A stretch of DNA of 64,000 bases, taken from positions 310,001 through 374,000 of the forward strand of contig NZ_VCNM01000001.1 in assembly GCF_007671725.1 (NCBI RefSeq). The letters run 5' to 3'. Source of the DNA: Halorubrum depositum (GTDB lineage: Archaea; Halobacteriota; Halobacteria; Halobacteriales; Haloferacaceae). Positions 30,943 to 35,966 of this stretch are shown piece after piece; position 1 is the first letter of the stretch; each line of letters begins with the position of its first letter. Below the pieces are notes generated by a model that was not told the DNA's origin, made no database searches, and saw nothing but the letters and a program-made list of their open reading frames with translations. The translations under genes and the position numbers were made by a program.

Positions 30943-31101
30943 ACCTCACCCGGCGACCGCCTCCCCCATGAATCTTTCACTTACGTGGTCACCTCTCGTC
31001 TTCGGTCTCGCTGATGATCCATGAACGTGGTACAAATCGGAGCGAAGCGGCGACGCAGTCGCATCGAAAGGACCACACTCGTCGCGGGCGCATCGCCGTC
31101 C

Positions 31102-31689
31102 ATGCACGAGGCGCGCGAGGTCGTCGTCCTCCGGTACGGCCATCGGCCCGGACGCGACGACCGCATGACGACGCACGTCGGGCTCACGGCCCGGGCGCTC
31201 GGGGCGGACCGCGTGATCCTCCCCGACAACGCCGGCCAGTCCGCGGAGACGGTTCGAGACATCACCGACCGGTTCGGCGGCCCCTTCGCGGTTGAACTCC
31301 GGGAGGACCAGAAGGCGATCGTCCGGGGATTCGAGGGCGTCGTGGTCCACCTCACGATGTACGGCGAGCGCGTACAGGACGTCGAGGGGGAGATCCGGGA
31401 GGCGGTCGGGCTCCCGGATACGAGCGAGGATCCGGCGGCCCCCCGCGACCTCCTCGTCGTCGTCGGCGGCGAGAAGGTGCCGTGGGCGCTGTACGAGCGC
31501 GCCGACTTCAACGTGGGCGTGACGAACCAGCCGCACTCGGAGGTCGCCGGGCTCGCGGTGTTCTTGGACCGGCTGTTCGACGGCGAAGAACTGGAGCGCG
31601 AGTGGGTCGACGCCGACCGCGAAGTGGTTCCGGAGGCGACCGGGAAGACGGTCGTCGACGCCGACGAGGGCGAGGACGAGTCGGACTGA
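31102..31689 (+). CDS. tRNA (cytidine(56)-2'-O)-methyltransferase
   Basis: Archaeal SPOUT-class enzyme (aTrm56) that 2'-O-methylates C56 in the T-loop of tRNAs. Length 195, normal. Visible are VVLRYGHRPGRDDRMTTHVG at the N-terminus, the Arg-rich motif typical of the family, VILPDNAGQSAETV, VVHLTMYGERVQDV, and the knot motif LLVVVGGEKVPWALYERADF, NVGVTNQPHSEVAGLAVFLD. The ATG at 31102 is taken as start because the preceding in-frame 27 residues (from 31021) lack similarity and are basic. It faces the KaiC-like gene, whose end lies 24 bases away. Confidence 0.93.
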   Translation: MHEAREVVVLRYGHRPGRDDRMTTHVGLTARALGADRVILPDNAGQSAETVRDITDRFGGPFAVELREDQKAIVRGFEGVVVHLTMYGERVQDVEGEIREAVGLPDTSEDPAAPRDLLVVVGGEKVPWALYERADFNVGVTNQPHSEVAGLAVFLDRLFDGEELEREWVDADREVVPEATGKTVVDADEGEDESD

Positions 31690-31713: not shown

Positions 31714-33195
31714 TCACTCCTCGTCGGCCCGCTCCAACCCCGACGCGTCGTCGACGACCTCCGGCGTTCCGCTCAGGATGCCGCGCAGCCCCGTCATCGG
31801 CTCGCCGACCGAGACGCCCTCCTCGGTGATGCGGAACTCGCGGATCGTCCGCTCGAAGTCGCTCGTCCGCTTCTTCAGGACGCCGATCGCCTTCCGCATC
31901 TCGCCTTGGACCTCCAGGTGCCGGAGGAAGACGATGTTGTCGGCGAGGTAACTGATGTTCTCGACGGTCGCCTTGAACTGACCGGTGATGTTCCGCGTCT
32001 CGTCGATGAAGATGGCGGTCACCCCCATGTTCTTGAGGTACCGTCCCAGCGCGTGCATCTGCTGGAGCATCATCCCCTCCTCGCCGCGGAGCGTGAGCCG
32101 GTAGCCCGCGATGCCGTCGACCATCACGATGTCAGCGCCGCGCTCCTCGACCTCCTCGCGGACCATGCGGGCGAACTCCTGTGGCGACCGCTCCAGCGCC
32201 TCCACCTCGTTCACCTGGAGCGTCCCCCGCTCGATCATCTCGTCGACCGGGATCCCGACGGCGCGGGAGCGCGTGAGGAACGTCTGCCGGTTCTCCTCGA
32301 ACAGGTAGATGACGGAGCGCTCGCCGCGTCCGGCGGCCTCCTTCATGAACTGCGTGCTCAGCGTCGTCTTGCCGACACCCGTCGGCCCGCTGACGATGCT
32401 GACCGTCCCGCGTTCGAGCCCGCCGTGGAGCAGGTCGTCGACCCCCTCGATCCCCGAGGATATCTGTTCGAAGTCGAACTCACCGGTGTGCTTCCCGGGC
32501 TGGAGCGCCGGGTACACCTCGATGCCGGCGTCTGTCACCCGATAGGCGTGGTCGCCGCTCTGCGTCGACGAGCCGCGGAACTTCGGCACGTCGATCGTCT
32601 TCCCGTACTCCTCCGCGCCCAGCCGGATCGTCCCGTCCGTGATGAACTCCAGGTCGTCGGTCGGCAGCGAGGCGGTGTTCTGGACGGTGAAGGCCACGGT
32701 CACGTCGCGTTCTTTCAGGAATCGCATGAATCCGACGACCTGCTTGCGGAACTGGTAGTCGTCGGACAACAGGAATCGGAGCTGGGTCAGCGGGTCGACG
32801 ACGACGCGGTCGGGATCGACCGCGGTGACGCCCTCCACGATCTGCTCGGTGAGCGGTTCGCTCTCGACCTCCGACGGCGCGAACACCTCGTACGACTGCT
32901 CCTCGGTGAACACGTCGGCACCCGGACTGAGGTCGAGAAACTCGATCGCGTCCGTGTCGAAGCCGAGCGCGGCCGCGTTCGCCTCGAGGTCGCGGACGTC
33001 CTCCTCTAAGTTGATGAACAGCGAGGTCTCGCCCTCGTCGACGCCCCGCTGGAGGAAGTGGAGGCTGAGGATCGTCTTCCCGCTGCCCGCCCGACCGCGG
33101 ATCATGTAGCTTCGCTCCGGGATCAGCCCCCCGGACAGTATCTCGTCGAGGCCAGGGACGCCGGTCGACACGCGATCGGGCAGTGACGCAGCCAT
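31714..33195 (-). CDS. KaiC-like double-domain RecA-type ATPase
   Basis: A 493-residue protein with two KaiC/RadA-type ATPase domains. Domain 1 has Walker A GRAGSGKT at 34-41, NLEED near 62-66 as the catalytic-Glu region, and VVVDPLTQL as Walker B. Domain 2 has GPTGVGKT at 270-277, YLFEENRQTF, and IVMVDGIAG. A C-terminal tail of about 50 residues follows (ERTIREFRITEEGVSVGEP). The second domain retains both Glu in FEEN. There is no KaiA or KaiB gene nearby. GATTTAAC on the minus strand at about 33219-33228 gives a leaderless start at ATG 33195. It is divergent from a LOV-domain histidine kinase, suggesting joint function in signal transduction. Confidence 0.88.
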   Translation of the reverse strand: MAASLPDRVSTGVPGLDEILSGGLIPERSYMIRGRAGSGKTILSLHFLQRGVDEGETSLFINLEEDVRDLEANAAALGFDTDAIEFLDLSPGADVFTEEQSYEVFAPSEVESEPLTEQIVEGVTAVDPDRVVVDPLTQLRFLLSDDYQFRKQVVGFMRFLKERDVTVAFTVQNTASLPTDDLEFITDGTIRLGAEEYGKTIDVPKFRGSSTQSGDHAYRVTDAGIEVYPALQPGKHTGEFDFEQISSGIEGVDDLLHGGLERGTVSIVSGPTGVGKTTLSTQFMKEAAGRGERSVIYLFEENRQTFLTRSRAVGIPVDEMIERGTLQVNEVEALERSPQEFARMVREEVEERGADIVMVDGIAGYRLTLRGEEGMMLQQMHALGRYLKNMGVTAIFIDETRNITGQFKATVENISYLADNIVFLRHLEVQGEMRKAIGVLKKRTSDFERTIREFRITEEGVSVGEPMTGLRGILSGTPEVVDDASGLERADEE

Positions 33196-33344
33196 GTCGT
33201 CGGCTCCGTGCGCCGGGTAGTTAAATCTGGATAGGTTCGAGCTCCATGTTGTCAATTATTGAACGGTAAACGGCCTGAGCGAGCGGTATAGGAGTTTGCT
33301 AAATGGGTAACTCTTAGTGGCAGTGCGTTCACCGTTCACGGAAG

Positions 33345-34937
33345 ATGGACACGGGCCCCGAGGGGCTCGCCGACGGTGCGCCCTCCGGAAGCGGCGGCGT
33401 CGACGCGCCCGCCGAGGAGGCCGCCGACGCCGGACCCGCGGACCGGATCGACGACGCCCCGGACGGAGGCGCGCCTGAACCCGACCGGGAGCCGCGGGTG
33501 TTGCTGTTCATGCGGCCGGGTCGCGACCGAGATCTGGTGTCCGAGGTGCTGAGCGGTCGGTTCGAAACCCACGCGACGACCGACGTGGAGTCGCTCGAAT
33601 CGACGTTCGACTGCTGCGTCTTCGACGCCCACGAGTTCAACCGCGTCGCCGGGTCGATCCAGCGACGGCGGGAGCTGGCCGCGCCCGTCTTCCTCCCGTT
33701 CGTCCTGCTCGTGAGCGACGACGCGGGCGGGCCGACGGCGGAGAACACGTGGGACTACGTCGACGACGTCATCGAGCTGCCGGTGCGGAAGCGGGCCCTC
33801 CGAATCAGGGTCGGCAACCTCGTCGAGCGGCGGCGCACCTCGCTCCGGCTCGCGGCCCGCGAACGGCGGCTCGAAGAGACCGTCGAGGACCTCCGGCTGA
33901 AGGAGCGCGCGATGGACGAGGCGCCGGTCGGGATCACGATCGCCGACGTCGACGGGAGCGGCGAGGGAGACAACCCGGTCGTGTACGCGAACGACGAGTT
34001 CGAGGCGCTCACCGGCTACGGCTCCGAGATGTTCGGCGCGGACTGCCGGTTCCTGCAGGGGGAGGACACGGATCCGGAGACGGTCGCGACGCTCCGGGAA
34101 GCGATCGACGAGGAGCGGCCGATCGCGGTCGACGTCCTGAACTACCGCCGCAACGGTCAGAAGTTCTGGAACCGACTCACGATCGCCCCGATCCGCGACG
34201 AGGAGGGGGCGGTCACGCACTACGTCGGCTTCCAGACGGACATCACGGAGCGGAAGATCCGGGAACGACGGCTGGAGGTGATGAAACGCGTGCTCAGCCA
34301 CAACCTCCGGAACAAGATGAACCTCATCACGGGGTACACCGAACTGCTGCGGCGGGACATCGACGACGAGGAGGCGCTCGACTCGCTGGCGGTCATCGAC
34401 CGCACGGCTGACGACCTGATGGGGATCGCCGGGGCGGTCCAGAAGCTCGATCACACCCTCTCCGACTCCGCGTCGGATGGGGAGGAAATCGGGCTCCGCG
34501 ACCGCCTGATCGAGCTGCGGTCGCGGGTCCAAGACCGGTACCCCGAGGCGACGGTCTCCCTCTCGGTGCCCCCCGACGACCCGCTGGAGACGACCATCGT
34601 CGGCCTGGCGACGGCGATCGAGGAGGGGATGGAGAACGCCGTCAAACACAACGACGACCCGAACCCGTCGGTCGAGGTCCGCGTCGAACGGGAGTCGACG
34701 GGGTGGCTCGCGGTCGAGATCGCCGACGACGGGCCCGGCATCCCGGACCACGAGACGCGCGTGCTCGAGCGGGGCGAGACGTCGCTGACGCACGCCGACC
34801 GGCTCGGGATCTGGCTGATGTACTGGGTCGTGAGCAAGGCGGGCGGGGACTTCTCGGTCGACACGTCGAGCGAGGGGACCACGCTTCGGATGGTCGTGCC
34901 GGCGCGCCCCCGCGACGGGACGCTGAGCACGGGGTGA
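33345..34937 (+). CDS. LOV-domain histidine kinase (predicted blue-light sensor)
   Basis: A 530-residue soluble kinase. Residues 1-48 are an acidic linker; 50-165 form a receiver-like domain without a clear phospho-acceptor pattern; a coiled linker follows (165-190). Residues about 191-303 are a PAS/LOV domain: GADCRFLQGEDT places the flavin-reactive Cys at C234, and NYRRNGQKFWNRLTIAPI gives the flavin-binding N266 and N276, with Q297 in GFQTDIT. Canonical LOV has Asn where D233 stands. HisKA follows with H319 in VLSHNLRNKMN, then HATPase with N431 (GMENAVKHND), DDGPGI at 461-466, and GIWLMYWVV. No response regulator is adjacent; a KaiC-like gene is divergent. Confidence 0.9.
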   Translation: MDTGPEGLADGAPSGSGGVDAPAEEAADAGPADRIDDAPDGGAPEPDREPRVLLFMRPGRDRDLVSEVLSGRFETHATTDVESLESTFDCCVFDAHEFNRVAGSIQRRRELAAPVFLPFVLLVSDDAGGPTAENTWDYVDDVIELPVRKRALRIRVGNLVERRRTSLRLAARERRLEETVEDLRLKERAMDEAPVGITIADVDGSGEGDNPVVYANDEFEALTGYGSEMFGADCRFLQGEDTDPETVATLREAIDEERPIAVDVLNYRRNGQKFWNRLTIAPIRDEEGAVTHYVGFQTDITERKIRERRLEVMKRVLSHNLRNKMNLITGYTELLRRDIDDEEALDSLAVIDRTADDLMGIAGAVQKLDHTLSDSASDGEEIGLRDRLIELRSRVQDRYPEATVSLSVPPDDPLETTIVGLATAIEEGMENAVKHNDDPNPSVEVRVERESTGWLAVEIADDGPGIPDHETRVLERGETSLTHADRLGIWLMYWVVSKAGGDFSVDTSSEGTTLRMVVPARPRDGTLSTG

Positions 34938-34967: not shown

Positions 34968-35966
34968 TCAGAGCGACCGCTTCGACCGCAGCAGCGCGAG
35001 CCGGAAGCGCGCCTCCTGGCGGCTCGTCCCGCGCACGCGGCCCGTCTCGGCGTCCGCCATCGACGCGAGCGACAGCCGATCGAGCAGGGGCGGCCAGTCG
35101 GCGGCGCCCGCCGCCTCGCCGGCGAACGCGACCGCGTTCCCGAGCCCGTCGCGCTCGGCGCTCCCGAGCCGCGCCACCGCGGCGTCGGCGTCGCGGCGAC
35201 CGCCGCCGACGTAGAGCCGGTCGCCGACCGCGGCGGGGAGCCACGCCGGCAGCAGGAGCAGCCACAACAGCACGCCGGCGACGGTGTACGCCCGCGGCGG
35301 GACCCGGTTCCCCTCGGGCTCGTACCCGTGGATCCGGTTGACGCGCCGGTCGGCGGCGGTCCGGTCGGCCCGGCGCCCGACGAGCAGCGTCGCCAGCAGC
35401 GCGACCGTCTCGACGAGCCCCAGCGCCGGCAGCAGGGCCGTGGTGACCGCCGCCTCCCGGCTCCGGAGTCGCACGAGCGCGTGGCGGAGCGCGGCGTCGC
35501 GGTCGGCCGCCGGGAGGGAGAGCAGCCGCGTCGAGACGATCAGCCGCGCGCCTCGGTAGCCGTCCGCCACGGCGACGTTGGCCGCGTCGGCGCGGACGAC
35601 CGTCACCGCCGGGGCGTCGACGCCGACCTCCCCGGCGAGGGTCGCGACGCGGTCGGCGACGAAGTCGGCGGGGCGGTCGTCGAGCTCGGCCTCGGGGAGC
35701 CGCGCGATCCGCCGGTCGACGACTACCGGACCGACGAGCGCCGAACCGCCGAGGCCGAGGATGACCGCGGCCAGCGCGCCGGCGGCCACCGGGGGAACCC
35801 CGCCGAGGGCGGCCGGGTCGACGACGCCGAGGCCGGCGGGACCGAGCGCGACGGCGAGGGGGATCAGCGGCGCCGCGGCGAGCAGCGCGGGGACCGTCGC
35901 GAGCGCGAGCGCGCCGACCGCTCGCCTGAGACGCACTCGGCCGCGCCGGGCCTCGGACTCGCTCAT
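34968..35966 (-). CDS. M48-like membrane protein lacking the zinc-protease motif
   Basis: A 332-residue membrane protein laid out like haloarchaeal M48 (HtpX/Ste24-type) peptidases: two N-terminal hydrophobic segments (about 18-45, 55-82), a cytosolic part with VTVVRADAANVAVADGYRGA and RLIVSTRLLSLPAADRDAAL, then further membrane segments (173-195, 230-250). The expected HExxH is replaced: at 162-166 the sequence is HALVR, so both the Glu and the second His are missing, while E171 in LRSREAAV remains. It is therefore predicted to be a non-catalytic relative, perhaps a regulator or partner of a real M48 peptidase. Convergent with the LOV kinase gene. Confidence 0.75.
   Translation of the reverse strand: MSESEARRGRVRLRRAVGALALATVPALLAAAPLIPLAVALGPAGLGVVDPAALGGVPPVAAGALAAVILGLGGSALVGPVVVDRRIARLPEAELDDRPADFVADRVATLAGEVGVDAPAVTVVRADAANVAVADGYRGARLIVSTRLLSLPAADRDAALRHALVRLRSREAAVTTALLPALGLVETVALLATLLVGRRADRTAADRRVNRIHGYEPEGNRVPPRAYTVAGVLLWLLLLPAWLPAAVGDRLYVGGGRRDADAAVARLGSAERDGLGNAVAFAGEAAGAADWPPLLDRLSLASMADAETGRVRGTSRQEARFRLALLRSKRSL

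Follow-up and report, generated by a model that had tools for sequence, protein, structure and literature searches.

A LOV histidine kinase encoded divergently from a double-domain KaiC-like ATPase in Halorubrum depositum, and a pseudo-receiver domain common to KaiC-partner kinases

In the stretch of Halorubrum depositum DNA analysed in this work (64,000 nucleotides, hereafter the window), a double-domain KaiC-like ATPase and a LOV histidine kinase are encoded by a divergent gene pair, and the kinase opens with a receiver-like domain which is shown here to be common to the partners of KaiC and nearly restricted to KaiC neighbours. We hold with moderate confidence that the pair represents a KaiC-linked sensor-kinase module of haloarchaea. 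In this module LOV would sense blue light, the pseudo-receiver would provide the coupling to KaiC and an unlinked response regulator would serve as the output.

A link between archaeal KaiC and light/dark expression has been known for more than ten years (PMC3941300), and Halobacterium is known to show diurnal transcription (PMC2675056). A survey of 11,264 genomes reported that the central output pathway of cyanobacteria is missing in Archaea and suggested other entrainment systems (PMC5520375). Haloarchaeal LOV kinases (PMC12202551) and the adjacency of KaiC and a kinase in one species (PMC3941300) are already known, and, as far as it is reported via PMC5847659, archaeal KaiC has also been described as a "signal transduction hub" linked with two-component proteins (Makarova et al. 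2017). No paper that brings archaeal KaiC and LOV together was found in the open-access literature, nor was any found there that describes the shared domain of the KaiC partners, although some of the neighbourhood facts may be held by Makarova et al. (2017).

The divergent gene pair

Both reading frames have the strands and coordinates that an earlier sequence-only reading of the window had assigned to them, and the 149-base gap which it described between the two start codons is exact. The features of this locus, in window positions, are as follows.

31714-33195, minus strand: KaiC-like double-domain ATPase, 493 aa (P0001)
31807-32475, minus strand: KaiC domain 2 (CII), residues 241-463; Walker A GPTGVGKT, catalytic glutamates E300/E301
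32506-33171, minus strand: KaiC domain 1 (CI), residues 9-230; Walker A GRAGSGKT, catalytic glutamate pair E64/E65
33196-33344, no strand: divergent intergenic region, 149 bp, between the KaiC ATG at 33195 (minus) and the kinase ATG at 33345 (plus)
33300-33319, plus strand: TAAATGGGTAACTCTTAGTG block, 20 bp
33345-34937, plus strand: LOV histidine kinase, 530 aa (P0002)
33492-33848, plus strand: N-terminal receiver-like (pseudo-receiver) domain, residues 50-168
33900-34250, plus strand: LOV domain, residues 186-302; C234 (codon 34044-34046), N266, N276, Q297
34299-34301, plus strand: predicted phosphoacceptor H319 (SHNLRN) in the dimerisation/phosphoacceptor helix
34599-34907, plus strand: HATPase_c kinase domain, residues 419-521

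The flanks were judged by sequence reading only. One flanking gene (31021-31689, plus strand) is tRNA methyltransferase-like (Trm56-like), the other (34968-35966, minus strand) is membrane-protein-like, and this reading revealed no response regulator next to the pair.

The KaiC-like protein

The minus-strand protein had been described as a two-domain KaiC-like ATPase, and this description is borne out by two matches to PF06745 (E 5e-81) and by a structure model (pLDDT 82) which resembles S. elongatus KaiC, matching the cyanobacterial protein over its whole length with a TM of ~0.80. Each of the two ATPase domains carries a Walker A motif and a catalytic glutamate pair, as expected for a double-domain KaiC. 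Sequence identity with S. elongatus KaiC is 25%, and in this alignment S415, Y416 and T410 correspond to S431, T432 and T426, respectively. The residues E65, E300, E301 and S415, together with the Walker residues, are invariant across 14 aligned KaiC sequences. The protein scored 179 bits against TIGR02655, the equivalog model of the cyanobacterial circadian KaiC, the cut-off of which is 546. It shares with cyanobacterial KaiC the fold, the two ATPase domains, the glutamate pairs and an equivalent of S431, whereas it stops short of the KaiA-binding tail, has a tyrosine in place of T432, so that only the serine of the two phosphosites is kept, and comes from a genome in which PF07689 (KaiB) had no match. 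A KaiB-based clock was rejected on the last of these grounds. Because of these three differences taken together, a cyanobacterial-type (KaiABC-like) oscillator is unlikely, and the term "clock-type", which had been applied to this ATPase, was an overstatement. The window KaiC may possibly act as an ATPase or kinase switch.

The LOV histidine kinase

The central part of the kinase is a LOV-type PAS domain (PF13426, E 1.7e-20) that matched solved LOV domains with E values down to 1e-32. The flavin-site residues assigned to it earlier are in place, positions 234, 266, 276 and 297 being C, N, N and Q with the spacing of known LOV domains. C234, within DCRFLQG, is the adduct cysteine of an NCRFLQ-type motif, and the residue before it is D, not N, throughout the aligned Halorubrum kinases; N266, N276 and Q297 stand at the canonical spacing for flavin contact and align with those of solved LOV domains. 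The NCBIfam YtvA/LOV-HK models matched with E values of 1e-40 to 1e-37, yet under their whole-protein cut-offs. The whole-kinase structure model is poor over LOV (pLDDT ~40, pTM 0.37) and only its N-terminal domain and kinase parts were used, so that our assignment of LOV rests on sequence; at this level the pocket is shown to be intact, and the predicted domain would be expected to sense blue light by flavin photochemistry at C234. One other LOV motif only is present in this genome (G000:C1:1125652).

The protein has the predicted phosphoacceptor histidine and, above cut-off, the HATPase domain (PF02518, E 1.6e-12) of a sensor histidine kinase. The HisKA match of 22.4 bits is under its cut-off; H319 is nonetheless invariant in the kinase alignment. 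The best structural matches of this protein are LOV histidine kinases, and it shares the same pocket residues and the LOV-then-kinase order with EL346, Brucella LOV-HK, YtvA-type proteins and the archaeal ALovD-1 (PMC12202551), but differs from the known LOV histidine kinases in its additional N-terminal pseudo-receiver and its conserved linkage to KaiC.

Conservation and arrangement of the pair

A total of 170 family genomes were searched and ~80 loci were fetched. The divergent KaiC/kinase pair was found in nearly all Halorubrum species examined and, in two other genera, in some of the species. In a quick KaiC tree (FastTree), the divergent KaiCs formed one clade and the orientation changed only ~2 times. 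In other haloarchaea the KaiC gene is followed in tandem by that of a kinase, which often bears LOV, and the frames often overlap or abut. The Salinigranum-type tandem kinase and the divergent kinase are homologous over their full length, with 37-40% identity and the same domain order, which indicates that the KaiC-kinase link survived the rearrangement. The sequence-only reading had proposed a search for this neighbourhood in other haloarchaea and had named lack of conservation as evidence against its interpretation; the opposite was observed, the pair being conserved in two arrangements. The light-responsive, KaiC-linked module that it suggested is therefore a good reading, with the correction that the constant element is the N-terminal domain and that LOV is only one of several sensors.

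Some other features of these loci were also noted. The C-termini of the Salinigranum-type kinases (L088, L089, L097, L102) have lost the N-box (ENAVKHND), and their sequence suggests that a KaiC partner of this kind may be a pseudokinase. Broken frames, which represent either frameshift decay or sequencing error, were seen in some Halorubrum genomes both for KaiC (L127, L128/L185, L126) and for the kinase (L140, L141). Weakly receiver-like ORFs of 123-133 aa abut KaiC at three loci (L176, 7462-7860; L172, 1661-2047; L159, 7470-7838), two of them between KaiC and the kinase. Lastly, at L118, L119 and L116 a further double KaiC is followed by two successive kinases, both with the N-terminal domain.

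The published example closest to the window pair is from Haloferax. In H. volcanii, cirC is the only double-domain KaiC gene, it is adjacent to "fixL", and the cir transcripts respond to light/dark (PMC3941300). The cirC primers published in PMC3941300 fit the KaiC of the pair in Haloferax genomes with 0-2 mismatches, and the gene after this cirC-type KaiC encodes a kinase of 858-870 aa with an intact CRFLQ/N/N/Q LOV. Judging from primer match and from gene order in relatives of H. volcanii, the Haloferax pair appears to correspond to the published cirC/"fixL". The name "fixL" may stem from a partial resemblance, as a curated FixL model matches a part of the kinase in these Haloferax genomes. 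As in the window, KaiC lies in these related genomes beside a LOV-bearing kinase with the same N-terminal domain; however, the genes are in tandem there and divergent here, and the kinase of Haloferax contains four PAS-type domains. The account of this pair in PMC3941300 leaves both LOV and the shared N-terminal domain of the kinase undescribed.

A pseudo-receiver domain in KaiC-partner kinases

The same 120-residue domain opens every KaiC-partner kinase that was inspected, whether LOV is present or absent. A Pfam search of this domain with E values up to 1 gave no match, and the curated NCBIfam matches shown for four homologues essentially begin downstream of it. Its profile matched receiver domains among the solved structures (PleD, 4e-15), and its model consists of receiver-like alternating strands and helices with a pLDDT of mostly ~70-90. 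The term pseudo-receiver has been defined as a receiver fold without at least one of DD, D, T and K (PMC12632262). As this receiver-like fold lacks the acidic pair (DD) and the lysine found in true receivers and mostly keeps the aspartate (D94 in the window kinase), the domain is a pseudo-receiver in this sense. A KaiB-like thioredoxin domain of the SasA type was not found at the N terminus of the kinase.

The domain occurs once in its own genome, in the window kinase. When 53 double KaiCs from bacteria and archaea were gathered by a KaiC-only search, an ORF with this domain was present within 3 kb of 48 of them. The domain was seen near KaiC in haloarchaea, cyanobacteria, Chloroflexi, Gemmatimonadetes, Armatimonadetes, Actinoplanes, Halomonas and others. 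KaiC and the domain were both present in 123 of 167 family genomes, with KaiC only in none, the domain only in 7 and neither in 37, a table on which the Fisher test ignores phylogeny. Among the listed matches to the domain, 129 of 150 have a listed KaiC within 6 kb. Most of the further stretches fetched around the domain contained KaiC or a KaiC remnant, and six had no KaiC in the stretch; some seemingly unlinked copies adjoin a KaiC that is intact, broken or reduced to remnants.

The distances among KaiCs and those among the N-terminal domains of their partners are correlated with r 0.76, a value which is inflated by shared descent and which none of 2000 permutations reached. A paralogue swap test is less exposed to this effect; it was applied to six genomes that have two pairs each, and of its 12 comparisons 11 favoured the true assignment of KaiC to partner over the swapped assignment. 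KaiC and the N-terminal domain are thus co-diverging, paralogue by paralogue.

LOV as a variable sensor

Among 96 distinct haloarchaeal pairs, the nearest partner ORF carried an intact LOV in 49, a LOV-like domain without the cysteine in 11 and neither in 36. The cysteine of these 11 is replaced by proline in nine (tandem) and by phenylalanine or histidine in two (divergent), with the flavin-contacting N and Q kept; the loci concerned are L085, L090-L092, L094-L096, L100, L194; L068; and L158. The LOV cysteine is kept in all Halorubrum pairs inspected, including that of the window. When any LOV ORF within 3 kb was counted, an intact LOV was present in 57 of 122 rows, bacteria and the window included, and none of the 25 bacterial partners had LOV. 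On the quick FastTree tree of KaiC the LOV state changes at least 12 times, which indicates that the N-terminal domain was retained through gains, losses or exchanges of sensors. LOV as a constant partner of KaiC was rejected in view of these changes and of its absence from many partners. Its proximity to KaiC is marked, since, of the 94 intact LOV motifs counted in 60 genomes of the family, 18 are no more than 6 kb from a double KaiC, where random placement would give ~0.24.

The intergenic region and loss of kaiC

Across Halorubrum the TAAATGGGTAACTCTTAGTG block is conserved at ~25-45 nt before the start of the kinase; it is unique in the window, and its 15-base core (33305-33319) has one exact copy only in the genome. 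A regulon operator was rejected, as the core has this single exact copy and its other matches were no better than a reversed-pattern control. In one genome (G142; L125, G142:C3, 6560-6660) kaiC is cleanly lost and the upstream gene runs into the promoter block and the LOV kinase, the block being kept with four mismatches between them. Its retention where kaiC is deleted indicates that it is part of the kinase promoter and not a shared operator. Decayed kaiC remnants were observed beside an intact divergent-type kinase in two genomes that hold other KaiC copies, G076 (L225, 5267-6346) and G072 (L226, 7462-7647). The survival of the LOV kinase after deletion or decay of kaiC in these three genomes indicates that the kinase does not need its neighbour to function, or to be retained.

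Proposed mechanism and alternative interpretations

In the proposed module, blue light would be read by the kinase through its flavin-binding LOV domain by means of a C234 adduct, and the N-terminal degenerate receiver would couple the kinase to the neighbouring double-domain KaiC ATPase. The states of LOV and KaiC would jointly set autophosphorylation at H319, from which the phosphate would be transferred to a response regulator encoded elsewhere. The adjacency of kaiC and the kinase gene does not by itself imply protein contact; the contact between pseudo-receiver and KaiC we infer, as we do the direction and output of signalling. Such a coupling, which is the most likely mechanism here, has analogues in the clock-connected pseudo-receivers carried by CikA and KaiA (PMC12632262) and in the N-terminal domain through which SasA reads KaiC (PMC5520375). 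The fold of the SasA domain is KaiB-like and differs from that of the window kinase, which is receiver-like, and CikA has GAF where the window kinase has LOV. A kinase is also genetically linked to KaiC, and has been proposed as its input, in the kaiBC-histidine kinase operon of Rhodobacter sphaeroides, as far as it is described via PMC5520375; this linkage is as here, but KaiB is present there.

That the two genes are merely chance neighbours of housekeeping genes is extremely improbable: the flanking genes are housekeeping-like and no regulator was noticed among them, but the conservation of the pair, the proximity statistics of LOV and KaiC, and the co-occurrence and co-inheritance of KaiC and the N-terminal domain all speak against it, and chance adjacency was rejected on account of the conserved pairing. 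The shared promoter region could serve co-expression alone, in which case the genes would share regulation (by light or stress), the proteins would not interact and the N-terminal domain would be a dimerisation domain or a phosphotransfer relic. This fits the retention of the LOV kinase and its promoter block after deletion of kaiC, and of the kinase beside decayed kaiC. However, the N-terminal domain tracks KaiC across phyla in spite of orientation changes and sensor swaps, and paralogous pairs stay matched; as co-expression leaves the retention of this one domain unexplained, we consider it unlikely to be the whole account.

A possible, though not favoured, alternative places KaiC upstream, with its ATPase or phosphorylation state as the main signal, the kinase as a SasA-like output and LOV as a gate or reset. 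It is a directional version of the sensor-kinase module, so that the probabilities assigned to the two overlap. The N-terminal position of the constant domain, as in the KaiC-reading domain of SasA, the existence of LOV-less partners and the invariance of S415 (S431 of KaiC) in the 14 aligned KaiCs are in its favour, whereas no timing activity is known for the window KaiC, T432 is changed, KaiB was not found and the N-terminal fold is receiver-like rather than KaiB-like. Another alternative, that LOV senses redox or oxygen instead of or besides light, draws on the 11 Cys-less partners, in which N and Q are kept, and on proline and phenylalanine variants known from Lake Diamante (PMC12202551); on the basis of their sequence, the Cys-less variants of KaiC partners are candidates for redox sensing. 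For the window kinase this is quite improbable, as the cysteine is kept in it and in all Halorubrum pairs inspected, and blue-light reception has been proven for an archaeal LOV that has the cysteine (PMC12202551).

An extension of the sensor-kinase module may tentatively be put forward, although we regard it as rather doubtful. The pseudo-receiver would be a dedicated KaiC-docking domain in both bacteria and archaea, and a single kinase would read light and the state of the KaiC ring without KaiA or KaiB; in Archaea the pair would then constitute a minimal KaiC timer or integrator set by light.

Significance

Since the N-terminal domain also adjoins KaiC in cyanobacteria, Chloroflexi and other groups, the KaiC-kinase module may be a general one. 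The pairing of KaiC with a LOV kinase provides a concrete candidate for how archaeal KaiC receives or passes on signals, and a partner kinase with a light sensor and a candidate docking domain offers defined proteins and residues for its study, including those in the genetically tractable Haloferax.
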